The translations under genes and the position numbers were made by a program. From positions 2,418,001 through 2,482,000 of the forward strand of contig NZ_JAPCIA010000001.1 of NCBI RefSeq assembly GCF_026107375.2: DNA of 64,000 nucleotides, given 5' to 3'. This document shows positions 11,715 through 23,816 of this stretch, in pieces. The notes beneath the pieces are model-generated. The model saw nothing but the letters and a program-made list of their open reading frames with translations, was not told the DNA's origin and did not search any database. Position 1 is the first letter of the stretch; each line of letters starts with the position of its first letter. Origin of the DNA: Sphingomonas sp. BT-65 (GTDB lineage Bacteria > Pseudomonadota > Alphaproteobacteria > Sphingomonadales > Sphingomonadaceae).

Positions 11715-12416
11715 ATGACCTCTACGCCCGCTCGCCACGACTGGCCCGCCATCGAAACCGCGCTCGATCAGGAAGGCTGGGCGGTGCTGCCCGGCCTGCT
11801 CTCCGCCAGCGCATGCACGACTCTCGCTGGGATCTATGACGCGGATGCGCCATTCCGCAGCACGGTGACGATGGCGCGGCACGGGTTCGGGCGCGGCGAA
11901 TATCGCTACTTCGCCTATCCGTTGCCGCCGCTGGTGTCGGCGCTGCGCGCCGCGGTCTATCCGCATCTCGCGGACATCGCCAACCGCTGGCACGACCGGA
12001 TGGGATTGAGCCGGCGCTTTCCCGTGGCGCATGAGGAGTTCCTGGCCGAATGCCGGGCGGGCGGGCAGACCCGTCCGACACCGCTGCTGCTGCGCTACGG
12101 CCCCGGCGACTATAACTGCCTGCATCAGGACTTGTACGGCGATCACGTCTTCCCGCTCCAGGTCGCGGTGCTGCTCTCGGCGCCCGGCGCGGACTTCGAC
12201 GGCGGCGAGCTGGTGCTGACCGAGCAGCGGCCGCGGATGCAGTCGCGCGCGGCGGTGGTGCCGCTCGGCCAGGGCGATGCAGTGGTGTTCGCCGTCAACC
12301 AGCGGCCGGTGCGCGGTGGCCGCGGCGACTATCGCGTGACGATGCGGCACGGGGTGAGCGCGGTCCGGCGCGGGCGGCGGCATACGCTCGGCATCATCTT
12401 CCACGATGCGCGTTAG
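11715..12416 (+). CDS. 2OG-Fe(II) oxygenase
   Basis: A 233-residue iron and 2-oxoglutarate dependent oxygenase of the prolyl-4-hydroxylase-like group. The iron facial triad is visible: His and Asp in LHQDLYG, and the distal His in VTMRHGVS. An Arg in the GRRHTLGIIFHDAR tail is a candidate for 2OG binding. It resembles bacterial proteins of unknown substrate that may hydroxylate a protein or repair alkylated DNA. The gene stands alone between the beta-lactamase-like gene and polA, and a two-hairpin repeat follows its stop codon. Confidence 0.86.
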   Translation: MTSTPARHDWPAIETALDQEGWAVLPGLLSASACTTLAGIYDADAPFRSTVTMARHGFGRGEYRYFAYPLPPLVSALRAAVYPHLADIANRWHDRMGLSRRFPVAHEEFLAECRAGGQTRPTPLLLRYGPGDYNCLHQDLYGDHVFPLQVAVLLSAPGADFDGGELVLTEQRPRMQSRAAVVPLGQGDAVVFAVNQRPVRGGRGDYRVTMRHGVSAVRRGRRHTLGIIFHDAR

Positions 12417-12444
12417 GTGACGATCCGGCTTTCGCCGAATCGTG

Positions 12445-12542
12445 GCGGCACCGGCCCGCTCCCCCACCCGGCCACCCAACGACAGTATTTTATGGGTGGC
12501 CGGGTGGGGGAGCGGGCCGGTGCCGCATCCGCGTGAGCGGAT
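12445..12542. repeat. Two-hairpin palindromic repeat, copy 1
   Basis: Left arm 12445-12477 and right arm 12494-12526 are perfect 33-bp reverse complements, closing a 16-nt loop (AACGACAGTATTTTAT). A second hairpin follows at once: ATCCGC-GTGA-GCGGAT at 12527-12542. An imperfect hairpin (CGGC-TTTC-GCCG centre, 12421-12442) precedes it. It fills the gap between the 2OG oxygenase gene and polA. Copies 2 and 3 share arms and loop pattern. Confidence 0.95.
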
Positions 12543-12599
12543 CCACACAAACGCCGCGAAATAGTTTGAGCCGTCCGCGGCATGGGCTATCTCCCGACC

Positions 12600-15365
12600 A
12601 TGCCCCATCTCTATCTGGTCGACGGCTCCGGCTATATCTTCCGCGCCTATCACCGGCTGCCGCCGCTCACCAACAAGCATGGCGAGCCGGTCGGCGCGGT
12701 CTATGGCTACACCACGATGCTGTGGAAGCTCGCCGACGAGCTCAACAAGGCCGACGGCCCGACGCACATGGCGGTGATCCTCGACAAGAGCGAGCACACC
12801 TTCCGCAACGATCTCTACGACCAGTACAAGGCGCACCGCCCGCCCGCGCCTGAGGATCTCGTCCCGCAATTCCCAATGATCCGCGATGCGACACGCGCCT
12901 TCAGCCTGCCGTGCATCGAGGAACTGGGCTGGGAAGCCGACGACCTGATCGCATCCTATACCAAGGCCGCGCTGGCGCAGGGTTGGTCGGTCACGATCGT
13001 CAGCTCCGACAAAGATCTGATGCAGCTGATGACCGATCCGTCGGTCGACATGCTCGACACGATGAACAACCGCCGGCTGGGGCCGGAGGCGACGTTCGAG
13101 AAGTTCGGCGTCTATCCCGACAAGCTCGGCGAGGTGCTGGCGCTGATGGGCGACAGCGTCGACAATGTGCCCGGCGTCCCCGGTGTCGGCCCCAAGACCG
13201 CGGCCAAGCTGATCGCCGAGCATGGCGATGTCGAGGCGGTGCTCGCCGCGGCGCCGTCGATGAAGCCGGGCAAGCTGCGCGACAATCTGATCGAGCATGC
13301 CGAGATGGCGCGGCTGTCGCGCAAGCTGGTCGAGCTGTCGTGCGACGTGCCGCTGCCCGATCCGCTCGAGGAACTCGAGCTCAAGGGCATCCCCGATGCG
13401 CCGCTGCGCGCGTTTCTCGAGCATCACGGCTTCAAGTCGCTGCTCGCGCGGCTGAGCTCGGCGGCGACCGTCGCCGACGCGCCGGTCGAGAGCCCCGAGC
13501 CGGTGCCGCTGCCCGAGGATCCGCCCTGCGACCACGACAATTACGAGACGGTGGTGGACGAGACCGCGCTCGATCGCTGGATCACCGTGGCGAAGCACCA
13601 GGGCTGGGTGGCGATCGACACCGAGACCACCGGCGTCGACGCGACCCGCGCCGAGCTGGTCGGGGTGAGCATGGCGCTTCATCCCAACCTCGCCTGCTAC
13701 ATCCCGATGGCGCATGGCGGCACCGACATGTTCGCCGAGAAGCCAGTCCAACTCGACCGCGACCTGGTGATCGCCAAGCTCAAGCCGTTGCTCGAAGATC
13801 CGGCGGTGCTCAAGATCGGGCACAACATCAAATACGACCTGATCGTATTGTCCCGGGTCGGGATCGACGTCGCGCCCTATGACGACACGATCGTGATGAG
13901 CTTCGACCTCGATGCGGGCCTGCATGGCCATGGCATGGACGAGCTGGCCGCGACTCACCTGTCGCACTCGTGCATCGCCTACAAGGACGTGGTCGGCGCG
14001 GGGAAGAAGCAGCTCAGCTTCAACGAGGTCGATCTCAAGGCCGCGACGCGCTATGCCGCCGAGGATGCCGACGTCACGCTGCGGCTGTGGCGCCGCTTCA
14101 AGCCGCGGCTGCCGTTCGAGGGCTCGACGCGCGTCTACGAGATGGTCGACCGGCCGCTCGCCCGGGTGATCGCCAGCATGGAGCTGGCCGGGGTCAAGGT
14201 CGATGCCGGGGTGCTGGCGAAGCTCTCCGACGACTTCTCCAAGCAGATCGCGGCGCTCGAGGAGGAGATCCACGGCCTAGCCGGATTCAAGTTCACCATC
14301 GGCAGCCCCAAGCAGCTCGGCGACGTGCTGTTCGATAAGATGGGCATCAAGGGCGGGCGCAAGGGCAAGTCGGGGGTCTATTCGACCGACGTCAACGAGC
14401 TCGAGCGGATCGCCGCGGACAAGGACTCCCCGGGTCGCGAAATGGTGGTCAAGGTGCTCGACTGGCGCCAGCTCACCAAGCTCAAATCCACCTATACCGA
14501 CGCGCTGCAGGCGCAGATCAACCCCGCGACCGGGCGCGTGCACACCAGCTACTCGCTCACCGGCGCGCAGACCGGGCGGCTTTCATCGACCGACCCCAAC
14601 CTCCAGAACATCCCGGTGCGGACCGAGGTCGGGCGGCAGATCCGCGACGCGTTCGTCGCCGAGCCGGGCAACGTCATCCTCTCGGCCGACTATTCGCAGA
14701 TCGAGCTGCGGCTTGCGGCGCACATCGCTGACGTGCCGCAGCTGCGCGAGGCATTCGAGCGCGGCGACGACATCCACAATTTGACCGCGACCGAGCTGTT
14801 CGGCGAGGTGAACCGGGATACCCGTGGCCGGGCGAAGACGATCAACTTCGCGATCCTCTACGGCATCTCGCGCTGGGGCCTCGCCGGCCGGCTCGATGTG
14901 ACGCCCGACGAGGCGCAGGCGATGATCGACCGCTATTTCGAGCGCTTCCCCGGCATCAGCCGCTACATCGCCGACACGCTCAACGACGCCAAGGCGCGCG
15001 GCTATACCGAGACACTGTTCGGCCGGAAGACGCATTTCCCGCGCCTCAAGTCGCCCAACCCCAACGAACGCGGCGGCAGCGAGCGCGCCGCGATCAACGC
15101 GCCGATCCAGGGCACCAGCGCCGACATCATCAAGCGCGCGATGGCGCGGATGGGCCCGGCGCTGCGGGACGCGGGCCTGCATGACGTCAGGATGCTGATG
15201 CAGGTGCACGACGAACTGGTGTTCGAGCTCCCCGAGCGCGATGTGGAAGCGGCGACGCCGATCATCCGTCATGTGATGGAGACGGCGGCCGAACCAGCAG
15301 TTAAGCTCACCGTGCCGCTCGGCGTCGAGATCGGCACCGGGCCGAGCTGGGGCGCGGCGCATTGA
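12600..15365 (+). CDS. polA: DNA polymerase I
   Basis: The repair and Okazaki-fragment polymerase, 921 residues from the chosen start. It contains three domains: a 5'-3' exonuclease (residues about 1-290; MPHLYLVDGSGYIFRAYH and GDSVDNVPGVPGVGPKTA), a 3'-5' proofreading exonuclease with AIDTETTG, IGHNIKYD and AAEDADVT intact, and a family A polymerase with SADYSQIELRLAAH and LMQVHDELVFE. Proofreading is therefore probably active. The ATG at 12600 begins the conserved N-terminus; an in-frame ATG at 12582 would add six residues. A two-hairpin repeat ends 57 bp upstream. Confidence 0.97.
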   Translation: MPHLYLVDGSGYIFRAYHRLPPLTNKHGEPVGAVYGYTTMLWKLADELNKADGPTHMAVILDKSEHTFRNDLYDQYKAHRPPAPEDLVPQFPMIRDATRAFSLPCIEELGWEADDLIASYTKAALAQGWSVTIVSSDKDLMQLMTDPSVDMLDTMNNRRLGPEATFEKFGVYPDKLGEVLALMGDSVDNVPGVPGVGPKTAAKLIAEHGDVEAVLAAAPSMKPGKLRDNLIEHAEMARLSRKLVELSCDVPLPDPLEELELKGIPDAPLRAFLEHHGFKSLLARLSSAATVADAPVESPEPVPLPEDPPCDHDNYETVVDETALDRWITVAKHQGWVAIDTETTGVDATRAELVGVSMALHPNLACYIPMAHGGTDMFAEKPVQLDRDLVIAKLKPLLEDPAVLKIGHNIKYDLIVLSRVGIDVAPYDDTIVMSFDLDAGLHGHGMDELAATHLSHSCIAYKDVVGAGKKQLSFNEVDLKAATRYAAEDADVTLRLWRRFKPRLPFEGSTRVYEMVDRPLARVIASMELAGVKVDAGVLAKLSDDFSKQIAALEEEIHGLAGFKFTIGSPKQLGDVLFDKMGIKGGRKGKSGVYSTDVNELERIAADKDSPGREMVVKVLDWRQLTKLKSTYTDALQAQINPATGRVHTSYSLTGAQTGRLSSTDPNLQNIPVRTEVGRQIRDAFVAEPGNVILSADYSQIELRLAAHIADVPQLREAFERGDDIHNLTATELFGEVNRDTRGRAKTINFAILYGISRWGLAGRLDVTPDEAQAMIDRYFERFPGISRYIADTLNDAKARGYTETLFGRKTHFPRLKSPNPNERGGSERAAINAPIQGTSADIIKRAMARMGPALRDAGLHDVRMLMQVHDELVFELPERDVEAATPIIRHVMETAAEPAVKLTVPLGVEIGTGPSWGAAH

Positions 15366-15462
15366 CACTGGATATTGCGTTCGTTTGGGGCGAAACCGGC
15401 TGGGACATGGGGATCGGAGAGGCTTCTCGACGCCGCCTGCAGTGCGCGGTTGAGGTCGGCGC

Positions 15463-16971
15463 GTGACCGCCGACGCGCGTCCGGCGCCTTCCGACGACAT
15501 CGCAGCACTCGCCAAGGGCGGGCGGACCAACTTCTTCGGATTCGTCCTGCGGCTCGCCGCGCGGCTGCCCTTCCTGTTCATCGCCGGGCGCCTCTACGGG
15601 CCGGAGATCGTCGGGCGGTTCGCGCTTGCGATCGTGGTGGTCGAGCTCGCGGCGCTGCTCGCGACGCTCGGCCTCAAGCGCGGGCTCGCGCAGGCGCTGG
15701 CCTCGACCGACCGGCCGCATGCGCATGTCGTGTGGGACGGCATGGTCGTCGCCTTCGTCGTGTCGATGATCGCGAGCGCGGTGCTCTTCACCTTCCCCCA
15801 GATCATGTACGCCAACAGCCAGGTCACCGGGCTGGAGGGTCTGCTGCCCGTGATCGTCTTCGCGATCGCCTGGTCCGACGTCAGCCTCGCCGCACTCGCC
15901 TATCGCGGCAATGTGAAGGCGGCGGTGACCGCGCGCGCGATCGTCGAGCCGTGGACGATCAGCATCGGCGCTTGGGTGCTCTACTATGCCTCGTCGCGCG
16001 ACGGGTTGATCATCGCCTATGTGCTGTCGATGGCCGCGGCGCTGATCGCCAGCCTGATCCCCTTCATCCGCAGCTACGGCCTGCCGCACGGCTGGTCGCC
16101 GCGAGTGACGCCATTGCTTCAGCTCGCGCGGCGCAACGTGCCGCTCGCCGGCGCCGACGCGATCGAATGGGGCACGCGCAACATCGATCGCTTCATCCTC
16201 GGCCTGCTGTTCCCGCCGGCGATCGTCGGCATCTATTACATGGCGCAGCAGGTCGCCTCGATCCCGCAGAAGCTCAAGACCAGCTTCGATCCGATCCTTG
16301 GGCCGGTGATCGCGCGCAATCTCGCCGCCGGAAACCGGGCCGCGATCGCGTATCAGGTCAAGCAGGTCGCGTTCTGGATCATCACCGCGCAGGCCGCATT
16401 GCTGCTGATGGGTGGCATCCCGGCCGAGGGCGTGATGGGCGTGGTCGGCCCGCAGTTCGTCGCGGGCGCGGGTGCCTTGTGCTTCCTGCTCGCCGCCGAG
16501 GTGCTCGCCTCGCCCGGCGCGGTCTCGGAGGCCGGCCTCGTCTATATGGCGCGGCACCGCAATCTGATGGTGTCGATGCTGCTGCTCGGCTTCCAAGCGG
16601 CGCTGAGCTTCGCACTGGTATTCCTGATGCGCGATTTCGGCTGGGACGTGAACTATCAGGCGGCCGGCCCGGCGGTGGCGTTAGCGGTGACGCTAGCGCT
16701 GGGCTCCACGATCAAATGCTGGATGCTGGCGCGGATGACCAAGGCATCGGTGTTCAGCCTGCGCCCCGGCTTCGTCGCGGCGATCATGGTGGCGGGAACC
16801 GTCGGCTGGGCGTTCACCCAGTTGCCGCATCATCTCGAATGGGTCGAGCTGTCGGTGGGCGTACCGGCGATCTTCCTCACCTATTTCGCCGTGATCGGCA
16901 AATGGGCGTTCGGCGAAGAGGACCGCAAGCTGTTCAAGAAGCTGCCCAAGGAGGGCAGCGCGGTCGCCTGA
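15463..16971 (+). CDS. Polysaccharide/lipid-linked oligosaccharide flippase
   Basis: A 502-residue inner-membrane protein with about 12-14 hydrophobic helices, of the MOP exporter type (Wzx or MurJ-like polysaccharide transport). It starts [20 protein letters not shown] and has the family's internal segment [20 protein letters not shown]. Such proteins move lipid-linked sugar units across the inner membrane for exopolysaccharide or LPS assembly. The GTG start at 15463 follows GAGGTCGGCGC. No glycosyltransferase lies next to it, but a heparinase-like gene lies 1.7 kb downstream on the other strand. Specificity is unknown. Confidence 0.87.
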
Positions 16972-16974
16972 ACC

Positions 16975-18546
16975 TCAGTGCCGGAAGTGGCGCATTCCCG
17001 TGAACACCATCGCCAGCCCTGCCTCGTCGGCCGCCGCAATGACCTCCTCGTCGCGGATCGAGCCGCCAGGCTGGATCACCGCCGTCGCCCCCGCCTCCAC
17101 CGCCGCGAGCAGGCCGTCGGCGAAGGGGAAGAAGGCGTCCGAGGCGACTGCGCTGCCGATCGTGCGCGGCTCGGCCCAGCCGGCCTTGTCGGCGGCGTCC
17201 TTCGCCTTCCATGCGGCGATGCGCGCGGATTCGAGGCGGTTCATCTGCCCCGCGCCGACACCCGCGGTGCTGCCGTCCCTGGCATAGACGATCGCGTTCG
17301 ACTTGACGTGCTTGGCGACGGTCCAGGCGAACAGGCAGTCGGCGAGCTCTTGGCTCGTCGGCGCGCGCTTGGTCACGACCTTGAGGTCGGCCTCAGCCAC
17401 CCGGCCATTGTCGCGCGACTGGACCAGCGCGCCGCCCGCGATCGTCTTGAGCATCAGCCCCGGGCGCGCCGGATCGGGGAGCGCGTCGCACACCAGCAGG
17501 CGCAGGTTCTTCTTGGCGGCGAAGATCGCCTTCGCCTCGTCGCTCGCGCCGGGGGCGACGACGACTTCGGTGAAGATCTCGCTGATCGCCTTCGCCGTTT
17601 CCGCGTCGAGCGGACGGTTGAGCGCGATGATCCCGCCGAACGCCGACACCGAGTCGCAGGCGAGCGCGGCCTTGTAGGCGTCGACCAGCGTGTCGGCGGT
17701 GGCGACGCCGCAGGGGTTGGCGTGCTTGACGATCACCACCGTCGGCGGGCCGTCGCGGAATTCGCTGACCAGCTCGAGCGCGGCGTCGGCGTCGTTATAG
17801 TTGTTGTAGCTGAGCTCCTTGCCCTGGAGCTGCTCGGCCTGCGCGATACCCGAAGCGGCCGGCCCGGCGGGCAGATAGAGCGCCGCCGCCTGGTGGGGGT
17901 TCTCGCCATAGCGCAGTTCCTCGCCACGCTTGAACACGAGCGGCAACGTGGCCGGGAAGCGCTCGCTCTGATCGGCGAAGGCAAACCACGACGCGATCGC
18001 TGCGTCATATTGCGCGGTCAGCGCATAGGCCTTGGCGGCGAAGCGGCGGCGGTCTTCCAGATCGGTCTCGCCCTTGGCGACCACGTCATAGTCGGCGGGA
18101 TCGGTGACGATCGCGACATAGGCGTGGTTCTTGGCGGCCGAGCGCACCATCGACGGGCCGCCGATATCGATATTCTCAATGATCTCGTCGCGGTCCGCGC
18201 CCTTCGCGACGGTCTGGGCGAAGGGATAGAGGTTCACCACGACCAGGTCGATCATCCCGATCGCATGCTCGCCAGCCGAAGCCACGTGCTGCGCATCGTC
18301 GCGCACCGCGAGCAGCCCGCCATGGACCACCGGGTGCAGCGTCTTGACGCGGCCGTCCATCATCTCGGGGAAACCGGTGAGGTCGGAGATGTCGCGCACT
18401 GCGAGCCCGGCATCGCGCAGCGCCTTGGCGGTGCCGCCGGTCGAGACCAGCTCGACGCCCCTGGTGGCAAGCGCCTGGCCGAGTTCGACGATGCCGGTCT
18501 TGTCGGAGACCGAGAGAAGGGCGCGCTTGATGGGGATGCTGGTCAT
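16975..18546 (-). CDS. purH: Bifunctional AICAR formyltransferase / IMP cyclohydrolase
   Basis: This enzyme performs the last two steps of purine synthesis: formylation of AICAR and ring closure to IMP. At 523 residues it has the normal length. The N-terminal cyclohydrolase domain (MGS-like fold) starts [19 protein letters not shown]. The C-terminal transformylase domain contains [31 protein letters not shown] and [12 protein letters not shown]. The gene converges with the flippase gene with 3 bp between them. It is downstream of the heparinase gene, separated from it by a two-hairpin repeat. Confidence 0.97.
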
Positions 18547-18589
18547 GGGCGGCGCTTTAGTCTGCGGAGCTTGCGCTGCAAGCCCCGAG

Positions 18590-18696
18590 TTGCGGCACCG
18601 GCCCGCTCCCCCACCCGGCCACCCAACGATAGTACCCTATGGGTGGCCGGGTGGGGGAGCGGGCCGGTGCCGCAACCGGTTCAGCTTTGCTGAACC
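18590..18696. repeat. Two-hairpin palindromic repeat, copy 2
   Basis: Arms 18590-18624 and 18641-18675 are perfect 35-bp reverse complements around a 16-nt loop (AACGATAGTACCCTAT). A second hairpin, GGTTCAGC-TTT-GCTGAACC, follows at 18678-18696. A GCTTGC-GCT-GCAAGC hairpin lies upstream at 18569-18583. The element fills the gap between the heparinase gene end and the purH start on the minus strand, so it would be in the purH leader if the genes share a transcript. Confidence 0.95.
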
Positions 18697-18702
18697 AGAA
18701 AA

Positions 18703-20451
18703 CTAACGCGCGCGGTGGAACAGCCAGGAGATGCTGGCGCCGCCCGGGGGGGACTCGCCGGTCAGCACAAGCTGCTGGGTTTCGCGCGGAATGCCGCGCC
18801 CGTCGACCCACACGCTTTCCTCGATCCCGAGCGCCGCGCCGCCCGCGCGGAACTGCCACGCCGCGCCCGAGGGCGTGCGGAGCAGCGCGCCCGCGCCGTC
18901 GGCGGTCGGCGAGATCTGCACCCCCGGATGAAGGTGGAAGCGGATCACGAAGGGGATCGGACCCGGCTTGCCCCGGCGGCCGGCGGGGATCAGGCTGTCC
19001 TCGCCGCGCACGTCACGCCCGTCGGCGCCGAGCGCGATGCGGCGGCGATGGATGACGCCGTGGCGCCGGACATAGCCGTCGTGGCTCGCCTCGATCCGGC
19101 TGGCCGTGTCGGTTTCCTGACGGCTGAGCTCCATCTCCGCAACGCCACGGCCGAGCGTGCCGTCGGGATGGATCGCGGTCGAGTTGCTGTCGCGGACCAC
19201 CAATGTCGAGTGCGCGGCGGTGGTGCGCAATCCCTCGGCGAGCCCGGCGGGAAGGCGCAGGTCCGCACCGCGTGCGCCGCCACAGCTCACGACGATGCGG
19301 TCGGGACCGTCGGAGAATTCAAAGGCGAGGGTAGAAGCGCAGCCGCCTTCCATCACGCGCGCGATCGGCGGCGGGGCGGCGTCGACGATCAGCACGGTGC
19401 GCTGCTGGGTGAGGCGCTGATAGCCCCATTCATGCGCCTGACGCAGCGGTCGGACGCGCACGCTGGTCGCCGCGACGATCTCGTCGATCCGGTCGCCACC
19501 AAGCGGCAAGCCACCCTGCCAGCTCGCGAGCCCGCGGTCGCCATGGCAGACGCCAAGCAATGCCGTGACCATCCTAGTAAGCGCACGGCTCTGCGTTTCA
19601 GGCGGATCGAGGCGGCGTGCCGCATAGGTCTCGCGCAGCAGCGTCAGCAGCATGATCGCGTCGAGCAATGCGAGCGGCGAGCGGCCGGTGATGCCGCCGT
19701 CCTCACTCACCGATCCCGCCAGCGCCCGGGCCAGACCCGCTTCGCCAAAGGCGCGGCGCGGATCGCCGCCGGGGATCATCAGCCCAGCCGCGAGCACGCC
19801 GCACCACGCCGCGATACGCGGTGCGCCGAGCGGGACGCGGTCGGCGGTGCGGTCAAGATGCCGCGCACCCCGCGCGAGCGTGTGCAGCACCTTCGAGCGA
19901 TAGACGAGATCGGTGCTGGAGAGGATCAGCGGCGCGTGTGCGGTCCAGAACAGGATGCGGCGGCCCCACAGATCCGCACGCCAGGCGGGATCGGTGACCT
20001 TGTCGGCATGGACGCCGAGCCATTTGCGCATCAGCGCCTCGGCCACCGGCGCGGCCTGTTGCCGGGTCGCGACCGTCGAGAGATCGCGCAGCCAGGCGAA
20101 GCTGTGGAAATAGTCGCCGAACGGTTTGGACCAGCCGGGCTTGGCCGGATCGAGCGTCACGACGACGTGGTTCTCGCCGCGGAAGGAGAGCTTGCCGTCG
20201 AGCAGCGCGTTGCCGCGCGCCGGATCGCCGAGAAAGGGATCGTCGGCGACCGCGATCAGCTTGAGCGGGTAGCGGCCCTTGAGCCGCAGGCCGTGGATCG
20301 GGGTGCGCCAGGTGAGACGATGGAAATGCTCGGACAGGCGATCGGCGAGCGAGAGGCCCCGGTCGCCTCCGGTCCGGATCAGCCGCTTGCCTTGCTCGAT
20401 CCCGTCGGCATTGGGCCCATCGACGGCGCGGTCGTCTTCCTGATCACTCAC
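18703..20451 (-). CDS. Heparinase II/III family protein
   Basis: A 582-residue protein with an alpha-helical toroid-like N-terminal half ([32 protein letters not shown]) and a C-terminal beta domain that includes [12 protein letters not shown] and [15 protein letters not shown], both typical of the heparinase II/III family. Members are polysaccharide lyases, but this alphaproteobacterial group has no tested substrate and no obvious signal peptide. Its ATG overlaps the rpe stop codon (ATGA). It probably forms one operon with rsmB, rpe and purH. A role in cell-surface polysaccharide turnover is inferred only. Confidence 0.88.
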
Positions 20452-21107
20452 CCCGCGCGCAACGCCCGGATATTATCAGCATAGGCGGACGGGCCGCCCT
20501 TGAACGCCGCAGTGCCGGCGACCAGCGCGTCGGCGCCCGCGGCGATGACGCGCGCCGCATTGCCCTGATCGACTCCGCCATCGACCTCGAGATCGATGTG
20601 GCGGCCGCTGGTGTCGATCTTCGCACGCAATGCCGAAATCTTCGCAAGTTGGCTCTCGATGAATTTCTGGCCGCCGAAGCCTGGGTTGACGCTCATCACC
20701 AGGATCAGGTCGATCATGTCCATGACGTGATCGACCGCGTCGATCGGCGTCGCCGGATTGAGCACCACGCCGGCGCGCTTGCCGAGGCCCTTGATCGTCT
20801 GGATCGTGCGGTGGAGATGCGGACCGCTCTCGGGATGGACCGAGAGGCAATCGGCGCCGGCATCGGCGAACGCCTGGAGCATCGGATCGACCGGCGCGAT
20901 CATCAGGTGGACGTCGAACGGCTTGGCGCTGTGCGGGCGCAGCGCCTTGATCACCGCCGGGCCGATGGTGAGGTTGGGCACGAAATGGCCGTCCATCACG
21001 TCGATATGGATCCAGTCCGCCCCCGCCTCGTCGATCGCGCGCACTTCCTCCCCCAATTTGGCGAAGTCGGCGGAGAGGATCGAGGGGGCGATGCGGACGG
21101 AAGTCAT
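20448..21107 (-). CDS. rpe: Ribulose-phosphate 3-epimerase
   Basis: Interconverts ribulose 5-phosphate and xylulose 5-phosphate in the pentose phosphate pathway. It has 219 residues and forms a TIM barrel. Metal and substrate residues appear in [30 protein letters not shown] and [13 protein letters not shown], and the phosphate-binding [11 protein letters not shown] follows. The start overlaps the rsmB stop (ATGA) and the end overlaps the heparinase start (ATGA). Confidence 0.97.
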
Positions 21108-22390
21108 ATCGGTCCTTTAACATCTCCCGAATCGCCCGCAACACGCATGAGGCGCACCATGAAAAAGCCGTCGAGGCCGCCTTGTTCCGCGAGCATGCCG
21201 GGAAGCGTGCGCAGCCAGCCGCGCGCGTGCGCGACGAGGCCCTCGGGCAGCTCGTCGGCGAGGACGCGGTCGATCGCGAATTCCGGATGCTCGGCAAGGA
21301 ATCGCTCGATCTGGCGCTCGCCCTCCTCGGGCTCGAGCGAGCAGGTGGCGTAGACCAGCAGTCCGCCGGGGCGCACCCAGCGCGCGGCGCGGGGAAGCAG
21401 CTGCGCCTGAAGCTCGGCCATCTCGGCGATCACACGCGGGCGCACGCGGTGGAGCACGTCGGGATGGCGGCGGAAGATGCCGGTGGCGCTGCACGGCGCG
21501 TCGAGCAAGACCGCGTCGGCCTCGAAGCCCGGCTCCCAGGTCAGGAGATCGGCGGTGACGATGTTGGCCGAGAGACCGGTGCGGGCCAGATTCTCGGAAA
21601 GTCGCGCCAGACGACTTTCCGAGATGTCGACCGCGGTAACCTCCCAGCCGGAGGCGGCGAGCTGGAGCGTCTTGCCGCCCGGCGCGGCGCAGAGGTCGAG
21701 CACGCGGCCGGTACCGCCGCCGATCAGGCGTGCGGGCAGCGAGGCGGCGAGATCCTGCACCCACCAATGGCCCTCGGCATAGCCGGGTAGCTCGGGGACC
21801 GACGTGTCGCCAGTAATGCGGCGATGATTGGGAAGCAGGCTTTCGCCGCCGAGCTCCGTCACATCGCTTCGCAGCGTGAGATCGAGCAGCGGCGGCGCGG
21901 CGATGGCGGCGGCCGTGGCTTGCGCGACCCGCTCGCCCCAGTTGCCTGCGATGCGGGCATGGACCTGGGCGGGGAACGACGGATACTCCGGCAACGCGGC
22001 CCCGCTGCGGTTCAGCGTGCCGAACACGCCATGGACCAGCTTGCGCGGCCCCCCGTCGACCAACGGCAGCACGGTCGAGATCGCAGCATGGGGCGGGGTA
22101 CCGAGGCGGAGCGACTGGGCGAGCGCGATGCGCAGGGCGAAGCGGGCCTTGGCATCGTCGGGCAGGCGTTGGCGGGTCGCGCTGTCGATCAGCGCGTCGA
22201 GATCGGCGAGCCAGCGCAGCACCTCGGCGGTAATGGCATGGGCCAAGCCACGGTCAGGTGGCGGCAGCCCCGCAGTGGACGCATCGAGCGCCTGCTCGAT
22301 CGCGAGACCGCGGCGCAGCACCGCATCGAGCAGACGCAGCGCAGCCCGGCGTGCGGGGACGCCGGGCGGATCGGAAGGCGGACGCGCCAA
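21104..22390 (-). CDS. rsmB: RsmB-type 16S rRNA m5C methyltransferase
   Basis: A 428-residue protein with an N-terminal NusB-like RNA-binding domain (residues about 15-150) and a C-terminal SAM-dependent methyltransferase domain. It has the SAM motif [16 protein letters not shown], the catalytic-loop [16 protein letters not shown] and the second Cys in [15 protein letters not shown]. RsmB methylates C967 of 16S rRNA in E. coli; the alphaproteobacterial protein is assigned by homology and could have a related target. It lies 3 bp downstream of htpX, so it may share its transcript. Confidence 0.92.
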
Positions 22391-22393
22391 GGC

Positions 22394-23380
22394 CTAGCCG
22401 CGCCGATTGGGATCGAGGGCGCTGCTGGAGCGGCGGGGCACCGGTTTGATGCCGAGCGCGGAAGGTCGGGTGGTTGACATAGCTGACAGATTCGAGGGGG
22501 TTTCCGGCGAGGTGTCAACCGCGGCCGGGGCACCCATTTCCTGCGCGAGGGCTTCCAGCGCAGCGATGCGGTTGCCGGTGTCGGGGTGAGTCGAGAACAG
22601 GCTGTCGCCGCCGCGGGCGAGGCCGGGGACGATGTAGAGCTGCGCGGCGGCGGGGACGCGTTCGGCGACCGGGTTGGGCACCGCCGCGGCGCCGCGGGCG
22701 AGCTTGGCCAGCGCCGAGGCGAGCGCGCGCGGGTTGCCCGAGATCTCCGCGCCGCCGCGATCGGCGCCGTACTCGCGCGTGCGGCTGATCGCCATCTGCA
22801 CGATCATCGCGGCGAAGGGCGCGACGATCACCGCGAGGATCGTGGCGAAGATCGCGCTGCGATCATTCCCGCCGCGGAAGAACATGCCGAAATTGGCGAG
22901 CATCGAGATCGCGCCGGCGATCGTCGCGACCATCGTCATGATCAGCGTGTCGCGGTTGCGGACATGGGCGAGCTCGTGCGCCATCACGCCGGCGATCTCG
23001 TCACGATCGAGGAGATTGAGCAGCCCGGTGGTCGCCGCGACCGCCGCATTCTCGGGATTGCGGCCGGTGGCGAAGGCGTTGGGGTGGGGCGAATCGATGA
23101 CGTACACTTTCGGCATCGGCAGACCCGCACGCTGCGCGAGATCCGCGACGAGCCCGTGGAATTCGGGCGCGGTGGCCGCATCGACCTGACGCGCGCCGTG
23201 CATCTTCAGCACGATCTTGTCGGCGTTCCAGTAGGTAAAGAGGTTCATCCCCACCGCGACCAGCAGCGCGATGATCATCCCGCCGCGCCCGCCGATGGTG
23301 AAACCCAATGCCATGAACAGCGCGGTCAGCGCCGCGAGCAACATGGCCGTCTTGAAACCGTTCACTTGGATATGCTCCAT
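22394..23380 (-). CDS. htpX: Zinc metalloprotease HtpX
   Basis: An inner-membrane zinc protease of the M48B family that clears misfolded membrane proteins. It has 328 residues, two N-terminal membrane spans ([34 protein letters not shown]), the HExxH site in [14 protein letters not shown], two further spans, and the third zinc ligand in SRTREYGAD. The C-terminal tail of about 50 residues is Ser/Pro-rich. No Shine-Dalgarno sequence is visible before the ATG at 23380: only CTACTAA separates it from the base of a 32-bp hairpin repeat. The real start could be further in. Confidence 0.95.
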
Positions 23381-23387
23381 TTAGTAG

Positions 23388-23482
23388 CGGTACCAGCCCG
23401 CTCCCCCACCCGGCCACCCAACGGCAGTATCATATGGGTGGCCGGGTGGGGGAGCGGGCTGGTACCGGTCGGCGAAGCCGAC
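23388..23482. repeat. Two-hairpin palindromic repeat, copy 3
   Basis: Arms 23388-23419 and 23436-23467 are perfect 32-bp reverse complements around the loop AACGGCAGTATCATAT. A second hairpin, GTCGGC-GAA-GCCGAC, follows directly at 23468-23482. Compared with copies 1 and 2 the outer part of the stem differs (GGTACCAG instead of GGCACCGG), with the matching change in the other arm. It lies in the leader of htpX. Confidence 0.95.
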
Positions 23483-23723: not shown

Positions 23724-23816
23724 CCGTCATGCTGAACTTGTTTCAGCATCCATCGTGCCACCAGCGACCTGGTCGCGTGTGGAGAAATGGACCCTGAAAC
23801 AAGTTCAGGGCGACGG
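23724..23816. repeat. Imperfect inverted repeat between convergent genes
   Basis: Left arm 23724-23753 includes CTGAACTTGTTTCAG and right arm 23787-23816 includes its complement CTGAAACAAGTTCAG, each with extra pairing (CCGTC with GACGG, TCCAT with ATGGA) interrupted by 2-nt mismatches. It lies between the convergent DUF1674 and DUF1697 genes and could end both transcripts as a folded RNA. The internal spacer is 33 bp. It differs from the two-hairpin family. Confidence 0.85.

Follow-up and report, generated by a model that had tools for sequence, protein, structure and literature searches.

Perfect hairpins of Sphingomonas sp. BT-65 as probable copies of a short non-autonomous element with IS5/IS1031-type ends

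The stretch of Sphingomonas sp. BT-65 DNA analysed here (64,000 nucleotides of contig NZ_JAPCIA010000001.1, positions 2,418,001 to 2,482,000, hereafter the window) carries three large hairpins, copies 1 to 3, that probably belong to a family of miniature inverted-repeat transposable elements (MITEs) of Alphaproteobacteria, short mobile elements without a transposase of their own, with ends of the IS5/IS1031 type. The complete element would be about 132-165 bp long, with a large palindrome (arms of about 33 bp around a loop of mostly 14-21 nt) in its interior, a small hairpin on either side of this palindrome, and a GAGNNNGTTTG terminal inverted repeat (TIR) at one end and its inverted copy at the other. 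A DDE transposase of the IS5 family (IS12528/IS1031-type), acting in trans, is predicted to make its cuts at the GAG ends and to bring about insertion, with duplication of TNA where the ends are of type B and of two bases, for instance TA, where they are of type A. That transposase would later have been lost from the BT-65 genome, and after insertion the palindrome could regain perfect pairing and its loop could flip, with template switching in the course of replication as the probable mechanism. Several observations argue for a MITE, namely the uneven copy number within one genus, lineage-specific variants of the core, the existence of empty sites, the presence of copies on plasmids, deletion derivatives in which both ends are retained, and the finding that only 1 of 149 placed elements lies inside a gene.

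Distribution of the hairpin family

The hairpins are not confined to the three window copies, since a stem-loop pattern allowing up to three mismatches finds 25 family sites in the BT-65 genome and none with a reversed control; more copies were recovered through small-hairpin or arm searches, and the census is incomplete. Within the genus, the 23-bp arm core (two or fewer mismatches) is present in 81 of 151 genomes, at 0 to 55 forward and 61 reverse matches per genome, with no match for the reversed control. In a sample of the class, the arm core occurs in 27 of 385 genomes and on both strands in 22, covering 13 families by hand count, and the reversed control gave one match (G228). A phylum sample yielded matches in 11 of 398 genomes, the reversed control itself matching two (G631 and G644), and the two matching genomes from outside the class (G596 and G636) hold lone unpaired arms. 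Named carriers among the matches listed are Sphingomonas, Hephaestia, Erythrobacter, Qipengyuania, Roseospira, Tistlia and Neoroseomonas. The hairpin is also found on three sphingomonad plasmid records, and the phage records searched gave no match. A perfect copy (L095) lies in CP051228.1, a record titled Mesoflavibacter sp. MAG, a name from outside the phylum of these carriers; the G+C content of 64% suggests that this record is a mislabelled metagenome assembly.

Sorting the first 180 arm matches gave 147 paired hairpins and 33 unpaired arms, loci present in two collections being counted twice. The unpaired arms looked degenerate, truncated or cut by a contig end, and the idea that the big arms delimit an autonomous transposon was accordingly rejected. 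Big hairpins are located at contig ends at many loci, including the start of C1, the end of C3 and the start of C4 in BT-65 (G000), and therefore assemblies seem to break at them, and copy numbers are probably underestimated. Four core strings had no match in the literature searched, and topical searches returned nothing recognised as the family, so that it is new as far as that literature shows, papers outside the search not being covered.

Two types of altered hairpin were also seen. At one BT-65 locus (L268, G000:C3:24267-24345), the big hairpin is without its centre, and a shorter palindrome is present between two small hairpins. At seven loci of the wider family (L256, L258, L037, L164, L026, L050 and L394), different palindromic repeats, around GATGCTTCGCATCG and CCGCGCTGTTCAGGCCATGCCGGGGGCATGGCC, lie at similar places inside the left arm, as if they targeted the big hairpin.

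Element ends and target duplications

The IS5-type ends are best seen in full-length relatives, defined as copies of 132-165 bp that retain the big hairpin together with a left and a right end, in which GAGNNNGTTTG, a small hairpin, the big hairpin, a small hairpin and CAAACNNNCTC follow one another between two TNA triplets (type B). The small hairpins are part of the element. Hairpin flanks are enriched for TTCAGC/GCTGAA, ATGCGC/GCGCAT, CAAACA and ACTCTA, and the exact terminus CAAACN3CTC is present on 23 of 412 flanks as compared to 1.0 in shuffles (never above 3 over 10 rounds), rising to 59 versus 16.5 if one mismatch is allowed.

Similar termini bound autonomous insertion sequences (ISs). 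For instance, the end of a hairpin element in G201 is identical at 17 of 17 bases to the end of ISs in Polymorphobacter p29362-3 and in congener G039, that of a G033 element agrees at 17 of 20 bases with an element annotated IS12528 in Gluconobacter pGOX2, and a decayed IS5-type IS in congener G030 starts with GAGACCGTTTGAGAATG directly after TAA. The transposase of one IS (L409) is annotated IS12528, three full-length IS transposases match NF033580 (IS5 family) above the cut-off, and for the more distant transposases that were measured, the ends either are of another kind or were not recognised. On plasmids and in congeners, TNA is duplicated in seven of the eight autonomous ISs with readable ends (L405, L408, L409, L410, L432, L433 and L434), the two sides of L406 being different; no ends were obtained for L407. 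IS1031-subgroup elements are described in PMC12016507 as inserting at TNA and duplicating it.

For the hairpin elements themselves, two-ended sets were selected by visual inspection of the ends, and a script then repeated the measurements. Among 19 loci retrieved to examine their ends, two type-B ends are present in ten and type-A ends in one, parsing failed for one, and seven are without two clear ends; the addition of L249 gave a set of 11, in which an identical 3-bp duplication is present in eight (L417, L418 and L427 differ). The type-A end, GAGTCTGTTTCAGC, occurs at seven sites in 5 of the 151 genomes. Five of these sites could be used (no right end is recognisable in L453, and L458 is cut by a contig end), and L429 was added to them. 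Four of these six copies have the same dinucleotide on both sides (L454 and L456 differ), and two have lost the big hairpin and kept both ends (L455, 31 bp, and L457, 56 bp). In BT-65, remnants of ends are found at L024, where the right end matches IS12528 at 16 of 20 bases, and at L006, where the left end matches at 15 of 20. The window copies would be worn members of the family, an assignment made because they share the core.

A number of results weigh against mobilisation through IS5-type ends. Most copies, including all three in the window, are without a clean TIR, the exact motif being limited to the 23 flanks noted above, and the ISs that were read do not carry the big hairpin. Five weaker-ended copies (L046, L169, L024, L115 and L120) all lack a duplication, which lowers the type-B count to 8 of 16, and in a set with both ends chosen automatically 6 of 11 copies have identical triplets, a value reached in 79 of 2000 permutations. 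No IS12528-like transposase was found in BT-65 at E<=1e-20, although a MITE does not strictly need an autonomous partner within its own genome. At the same threshold relatives are present in 29 of 151 congeners, with at least 75% identity in seven, and others are on plasmids. The presence of this transposase does not track copy number, as a hand tally finds it in 5 of the 20 genomes with at least ten forward arm matches as compared to the 29 of 151 overall, and two of the seven congeners with a relative of at least 75% identity (G002 and G039) have no hairpin. In addition, four high-copy genomes (G110, G075, G119 and G050) are without matches to PF13340 and PF01609. The simplest reading of this pattern is loss of the partner after a burst of transposition, although another mobiliser may be involved.

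Because the same core is found with more than one type of end, the hairpin could also be a separate module. In this alternative, the best placed of those considered here and in our judgement improbable, the big hairpin (about 82 bp) is a mobile or functional module of its own that enters, or is captured by, unrelated MITE families, and the IS5-type ends belong to the carriers. Consistent with such a module, the core is near-constant across 13 families, whereas the outer stem, the small hairpins and the ends vary from lineage to lineage; two end types occur within one genus; and in many copies the small hairpin is present on one side or on neither. Against such a module, exact TTCAGC..GCTGAA hairpins are found at 19 sites in BT-65, 18 of which adjoin an intact or altered big hairpin (the one at C1:2775567 does not), and ten of the 18 form five pairs 64-105 bp apart. 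Likewise, the insertion of copy 3 carried a small hairpin along, as both are missing from the orthologous site in congeners G026, G015, G030 and G010. A MITE with IS5/IS1031-type ends remains the reading that we prefer.

Covariation, arm repair and loop inversion

The original prediction, made from the window alone, held that the two arms change together and suggested that perfect pairing reflects selection for the hairpin. The first point is borne out, in that the alternative arm pairs GGCACCGG/CCGGTGCC and GGTACCAG/CTGGTACC are both present and covariation among the BT-65 copies exceeds that of shuffled alignments. When 18 of the 25 copies are aligned, 98.3% of cells are paired, four pairs vary on both sides, and both-side changes occupy 15 cells versus 4.6 in shuffles, with none of 500 shuffles reaching that value. 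Seven copies were left out, two with contig-end cuts (L019 and L025), three whose arms contain an indel (L006, L016 and L023), one degenerate (L018), and one with a one-arm mismatch outside the script pattern (L014), and the alignment is therefore tilted somewhat toward pairing. The second point needs to be qualified, as part of the perfect pairing may stem from copying of a perfect template and from palindrome correction, rather than from selection on each copy.

Orthologous copies, compared in the better orientation, give a mixed picture. In a gene-transfer-agent (GTA)-like cluster, L083, L151 and L157 differ pairwise by 2-4 both-arm changes and no one-arm change, and among L147, L150 and L008 there are 1-3 both-arm and 0-1 one-arm changes. 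Five one-arm changes separate L158 from the latter three. Elsewhere, L031/L089 have no both-arm and six one-arm changes, and L105/L188 two of each; L069/L098 (in which old mismatches are retained) and L167/L189 both have no both-arm and one one-arm change, L151/L160 have none, and L057/L134 are degenerate. Copy 2 of the window differs from its G026 orthologue by a single one-arm change and no both-arm change, with near-identical left flanks and unrelated loops. As the orthologue groups disagree, pairing appears to be restored at some sites and not at others.

In two cases, loops are inverted between orthologous copies. L147 and L150 have their flanks and both small hairpins in common, and their loops are reverse complements of one another bar one base; similarly, the loop of L151 is inverted relative to those of L083 and L157 (2 to 3 differences in 16). 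Template switching at a palindrome, or intramolecular recombination, would invert loops in this manner. Across species, loops are mostly 14-21 nt long and often have a GTATCCT-like core in either orientation.

A constrained G-run core

To judge from the arm sequences, the core appears to be under a constraint that pairing does not explain. From part of the genus and class lists, 60 places with variant arms were fetched, and 55 yielded both arms. The 67 compensated changes, some of which are shared between lineages and so do not represent separate events, all fall at positions 4, 6, 12, 16, 17 and 20 of CCCGCTCCCCCACCCGGCCACCC, with none at the 17 C positions of the core, as compared to 18 of the 30 one-arm changes. 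Decay thus touches C positions and the paired variants seen do not, and since compensated changes avoid every C position, the G-runs of the core seem to be constrained beyond pairing. The G strand, GGG-n-GGyC-GGG-n-GGGGG-n-G-n-GGG, is a possible G-quadruplex, and sequence-specific protein recognition may equally explain the constraint. Because the C/G runs are kept beyond what pairing demands, the big hairpin may also be a protein target, as the original prediction had suggested.

These features can be combined into a single, more speculative proposal, which we put forward as doubtful when taken as a whole: the big hairpin would be a conserved structural cassette, carried by several alphaproteobacterial IS5-type MITE families as an aid to spread, its 23-bp core CCCNCNCCCCCNCCCGRCCNCCC could form a G-quadruplex from either strand, template switching would restore its pairing, its loop would be invertible, and new lineages would be founded only by copies with intact G-runs.

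Genomic placement and a possible host function

Of 172 elements, 149 could be placed relative to genes, the remainder being near the end of a locus or without a gene call; no genomic baseline accompanies these counts. Placed elements lie between co-directional genes in 96 cases, convergent genes in 35 and divergent genes in 17, with one inside a gene. Adjoining stop codons are within 60 nt in 144 of 166 cases, and start codons in 57 of 130. Of the stop codons beside elements, 47 of 152 are TAG, a larger share than the 117 of 663 in control genes; a TAG contributed by type-A ends is a possible reason. A conserved GTA- or prophage-like cluster, inspected only by eye, carries several intergenic copies at sites that are occupied or emptied depending on the species (L083/L141, L147, L150, L151, L157, L158 and L160 in IMG/VR, and L008 in BT-65).

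The nearness of stops, and the surplus of convergent over divergent pairs, would suit a structure kept by the host, such as a stabiliser or processing site at mRNA 3' ends, a G-quadruplex or a protein-binding site, as would the invariance of the G/C runs among compensated changes and the both-arm changes in some orthologues. Nevertheless, we give this explanation little credence. Pairing at the RNA level should favour G-U mismatches, yet among one-arm mismatches of elements between co-directional genes, read on the presumed transcript strand with transcription assumed, G-U numbers 34 and A-C 42, and there is no sign of RNA-level selection. The RNA stabiliser proposed in the original prediction thus found no positive evidence. 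Presence of the hairpin is patchy, with empty sites in congeners, and the flank beyond the small hairpins is A-rich without a U-tract, for which reason an intrinsic terminator was rejected as well.

Other candidate mobilisers

Repetitive extragenic palindromes (REPs), and the paired forms known as REPINs, are moved with a REP-associated tyrosine transposase (RAYT). The original prediction had named mobile REP-like elements as one possibility, with a check for such a transposase in the same genome; of this, only the mobility, seen in patchy copy number, empty sites, IS ends in relatives and some target duplications, is upheld. Opposed small palindromes around a spacer do look REPIN-like, and a protein matching PF01797, the Y1 transposase family, is present in two of 20 high-copy genomes (G033 and G132); however, BT-65 and the highest-copy congeners (G110, G075 and G030) have no PF01797 match, 16 of 151 congeners have one, and full-length copies end in IS5-type termini. 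With no Y1 transposase in its own genome, a RAYT-driven REP was rejected as very improbable.

Other candidates were also set aside. IS427-type ISs (PF13340 matches with CTAGG-type ends) have ends that differ from those of the hairpin elements, and PF01609 transposases, examined in eight genomes, are missing from four high-copy genomes. No common partner gene was recognised by eye, the clusters inspected seeming to stem from a GTA- or prophage-like region in IMG/VR contigs or from out-of-frame readings. In G033 and G091, the genes enclosed by two pairs of hairpins 2.4 kb apart look ordinary and, by their N-termini, unrelated, no family search having been made.

The three copies in the window

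All three copies are at the positions originally reported and have perfect arms (no strand is assigned to these features). The original prediction gave arms of 32-35 bp around a 16-nt loop; the arms measured here are 33-37 bp and the loop 14 nt, because the first and last bases of the 16-nt loop can pair. In copy 1, the left arm (12445..12478), loop (12479..12492) and right arm (12493..12526) make a perfect 34-bp pair; in copy 2, the left arm (18589..18625), loop (18626..18639) and right arm (18640..18676) make a perfect 37-bp pair; and in copy 3, the left arm (23388..23420), loop (23421..23434) and right arm (23435..23467) make a perfect 33-bp pair. A listing of inverted repeats in the window (arms of at least 18 nt, spacing of at most 150 nt) has 22 entries, of which only these three have 100% complementary arms. 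Folded as RNA, copy 1 reaches -116.4 kcal/mol (z = -12.1), copy 2 -121.7 kcal/mol (z = -15.4) and copy 3 -92.9 kcal/mol (z = -12.4), and none of 200 dinucleotide shuffles folds as well. Rfam gave no match at the gathering score in the window.

The second small hairpin reported beside each copy is present, starting 0-1 nt after the big hairpin: ATCCGC GTGA GCGGAT in copy 1 (12527..12542), GGTTCAGC TTT GCTGAACC in copy 2 (18678..18696; GCTTCAGC..GCTGAAGC in the G026 orthologue), and GTCGGC GAA GCCGAC, followed by TAA, in copy 3 (23468..23482). Overlooked at first were imperfect left small hairpins, with one internal mismatch each, in copy 1 (ACGATCCGGC..GCCGAATCGT, 12420..12443) and copy 2 (GGAGCTTGC GCT GCAAGCCCC, 18566..18586). 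To the right of copy 2, CAGAAAAC followed by TAACG (18696..18708) may be a worn right end, to be compared with type-A ends, in which GAAACAGACTC is followed by TA.

By our own gene calling, copy 1 lies between a gene called at 11715-12416, with its left small hairpin starting 3 nt past the stop codon, and a gene called from 12582 that is DNA polymerase I-like, judging by its N-terminus. Copy 2 is flanked by two minus-strand genes, and copy 3 lies between divergent genes. Copy 2 also occurs in G026, with an apparent short remnant in G015 and an empty or deleted site in G030. A different inverted pair, CCGTCATGCTGAACTTGTTTCAGCATCC...CCTGAAACAAGTTCAGGGCGACGG, at 23724-23816 resembles two facing REPs with a CGTC tag, a class described in PMC3733652.

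Significance and comparison with known systems

The IS5-type ends propose an origin for the perfect hairpins, often at contig ends, of many Alphaproteobacteria. With orthologous copies of known divergence, the family also lends itself to the study of how palindromes are corrected and loops inverted in bacteria, and the surprising part, a constrained G-run palindrome inside a MITE, offers a test of whether a conserved G-run hairpin affects mobility.

With the IS12528/IS1031-subgroup ISs of the IS5 family, the element shares a terminal repeat, GAGNNN[GT]TTTG followed by RRAAT, and, in part of the copies, a TNA target duplication; in contrast to these ISs of about 900 bp, the element is about 132-165 bp long, has no transposase gene, and possesses a big G-run hairpin. 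REPs and REPINs are likewise extragenic palindromes, but differ in that the genome of the hairpin element is without a Y1 transposase, the ends are of another type, and the 23-bp G-run core is conserved. MITEs of the ERIC, RUP and Correia types, as characterised in PMC2229807, are similarly 100-200 bp long, mostly intergenic, multicopy, hairpin-forming and without a transposase; compared by description rather than by alignment, the element is set apart by its three-hairpin layout, perfect inner palindrome and IS5/IS1031-type ends. The CIR repeats of Caulobacter and Brucella, also covered in PMC2229807, are again intergenic alphaproteobacterial repeats with long inverted repeats and carry conserved GANTC sites, whereas GANTC, the CcrM site, is not enriched in the flanks of the hairpin element (58 versus 78 in shuffles, loops not counted), and the element is accordingly distinguished from CIR by its flanks.

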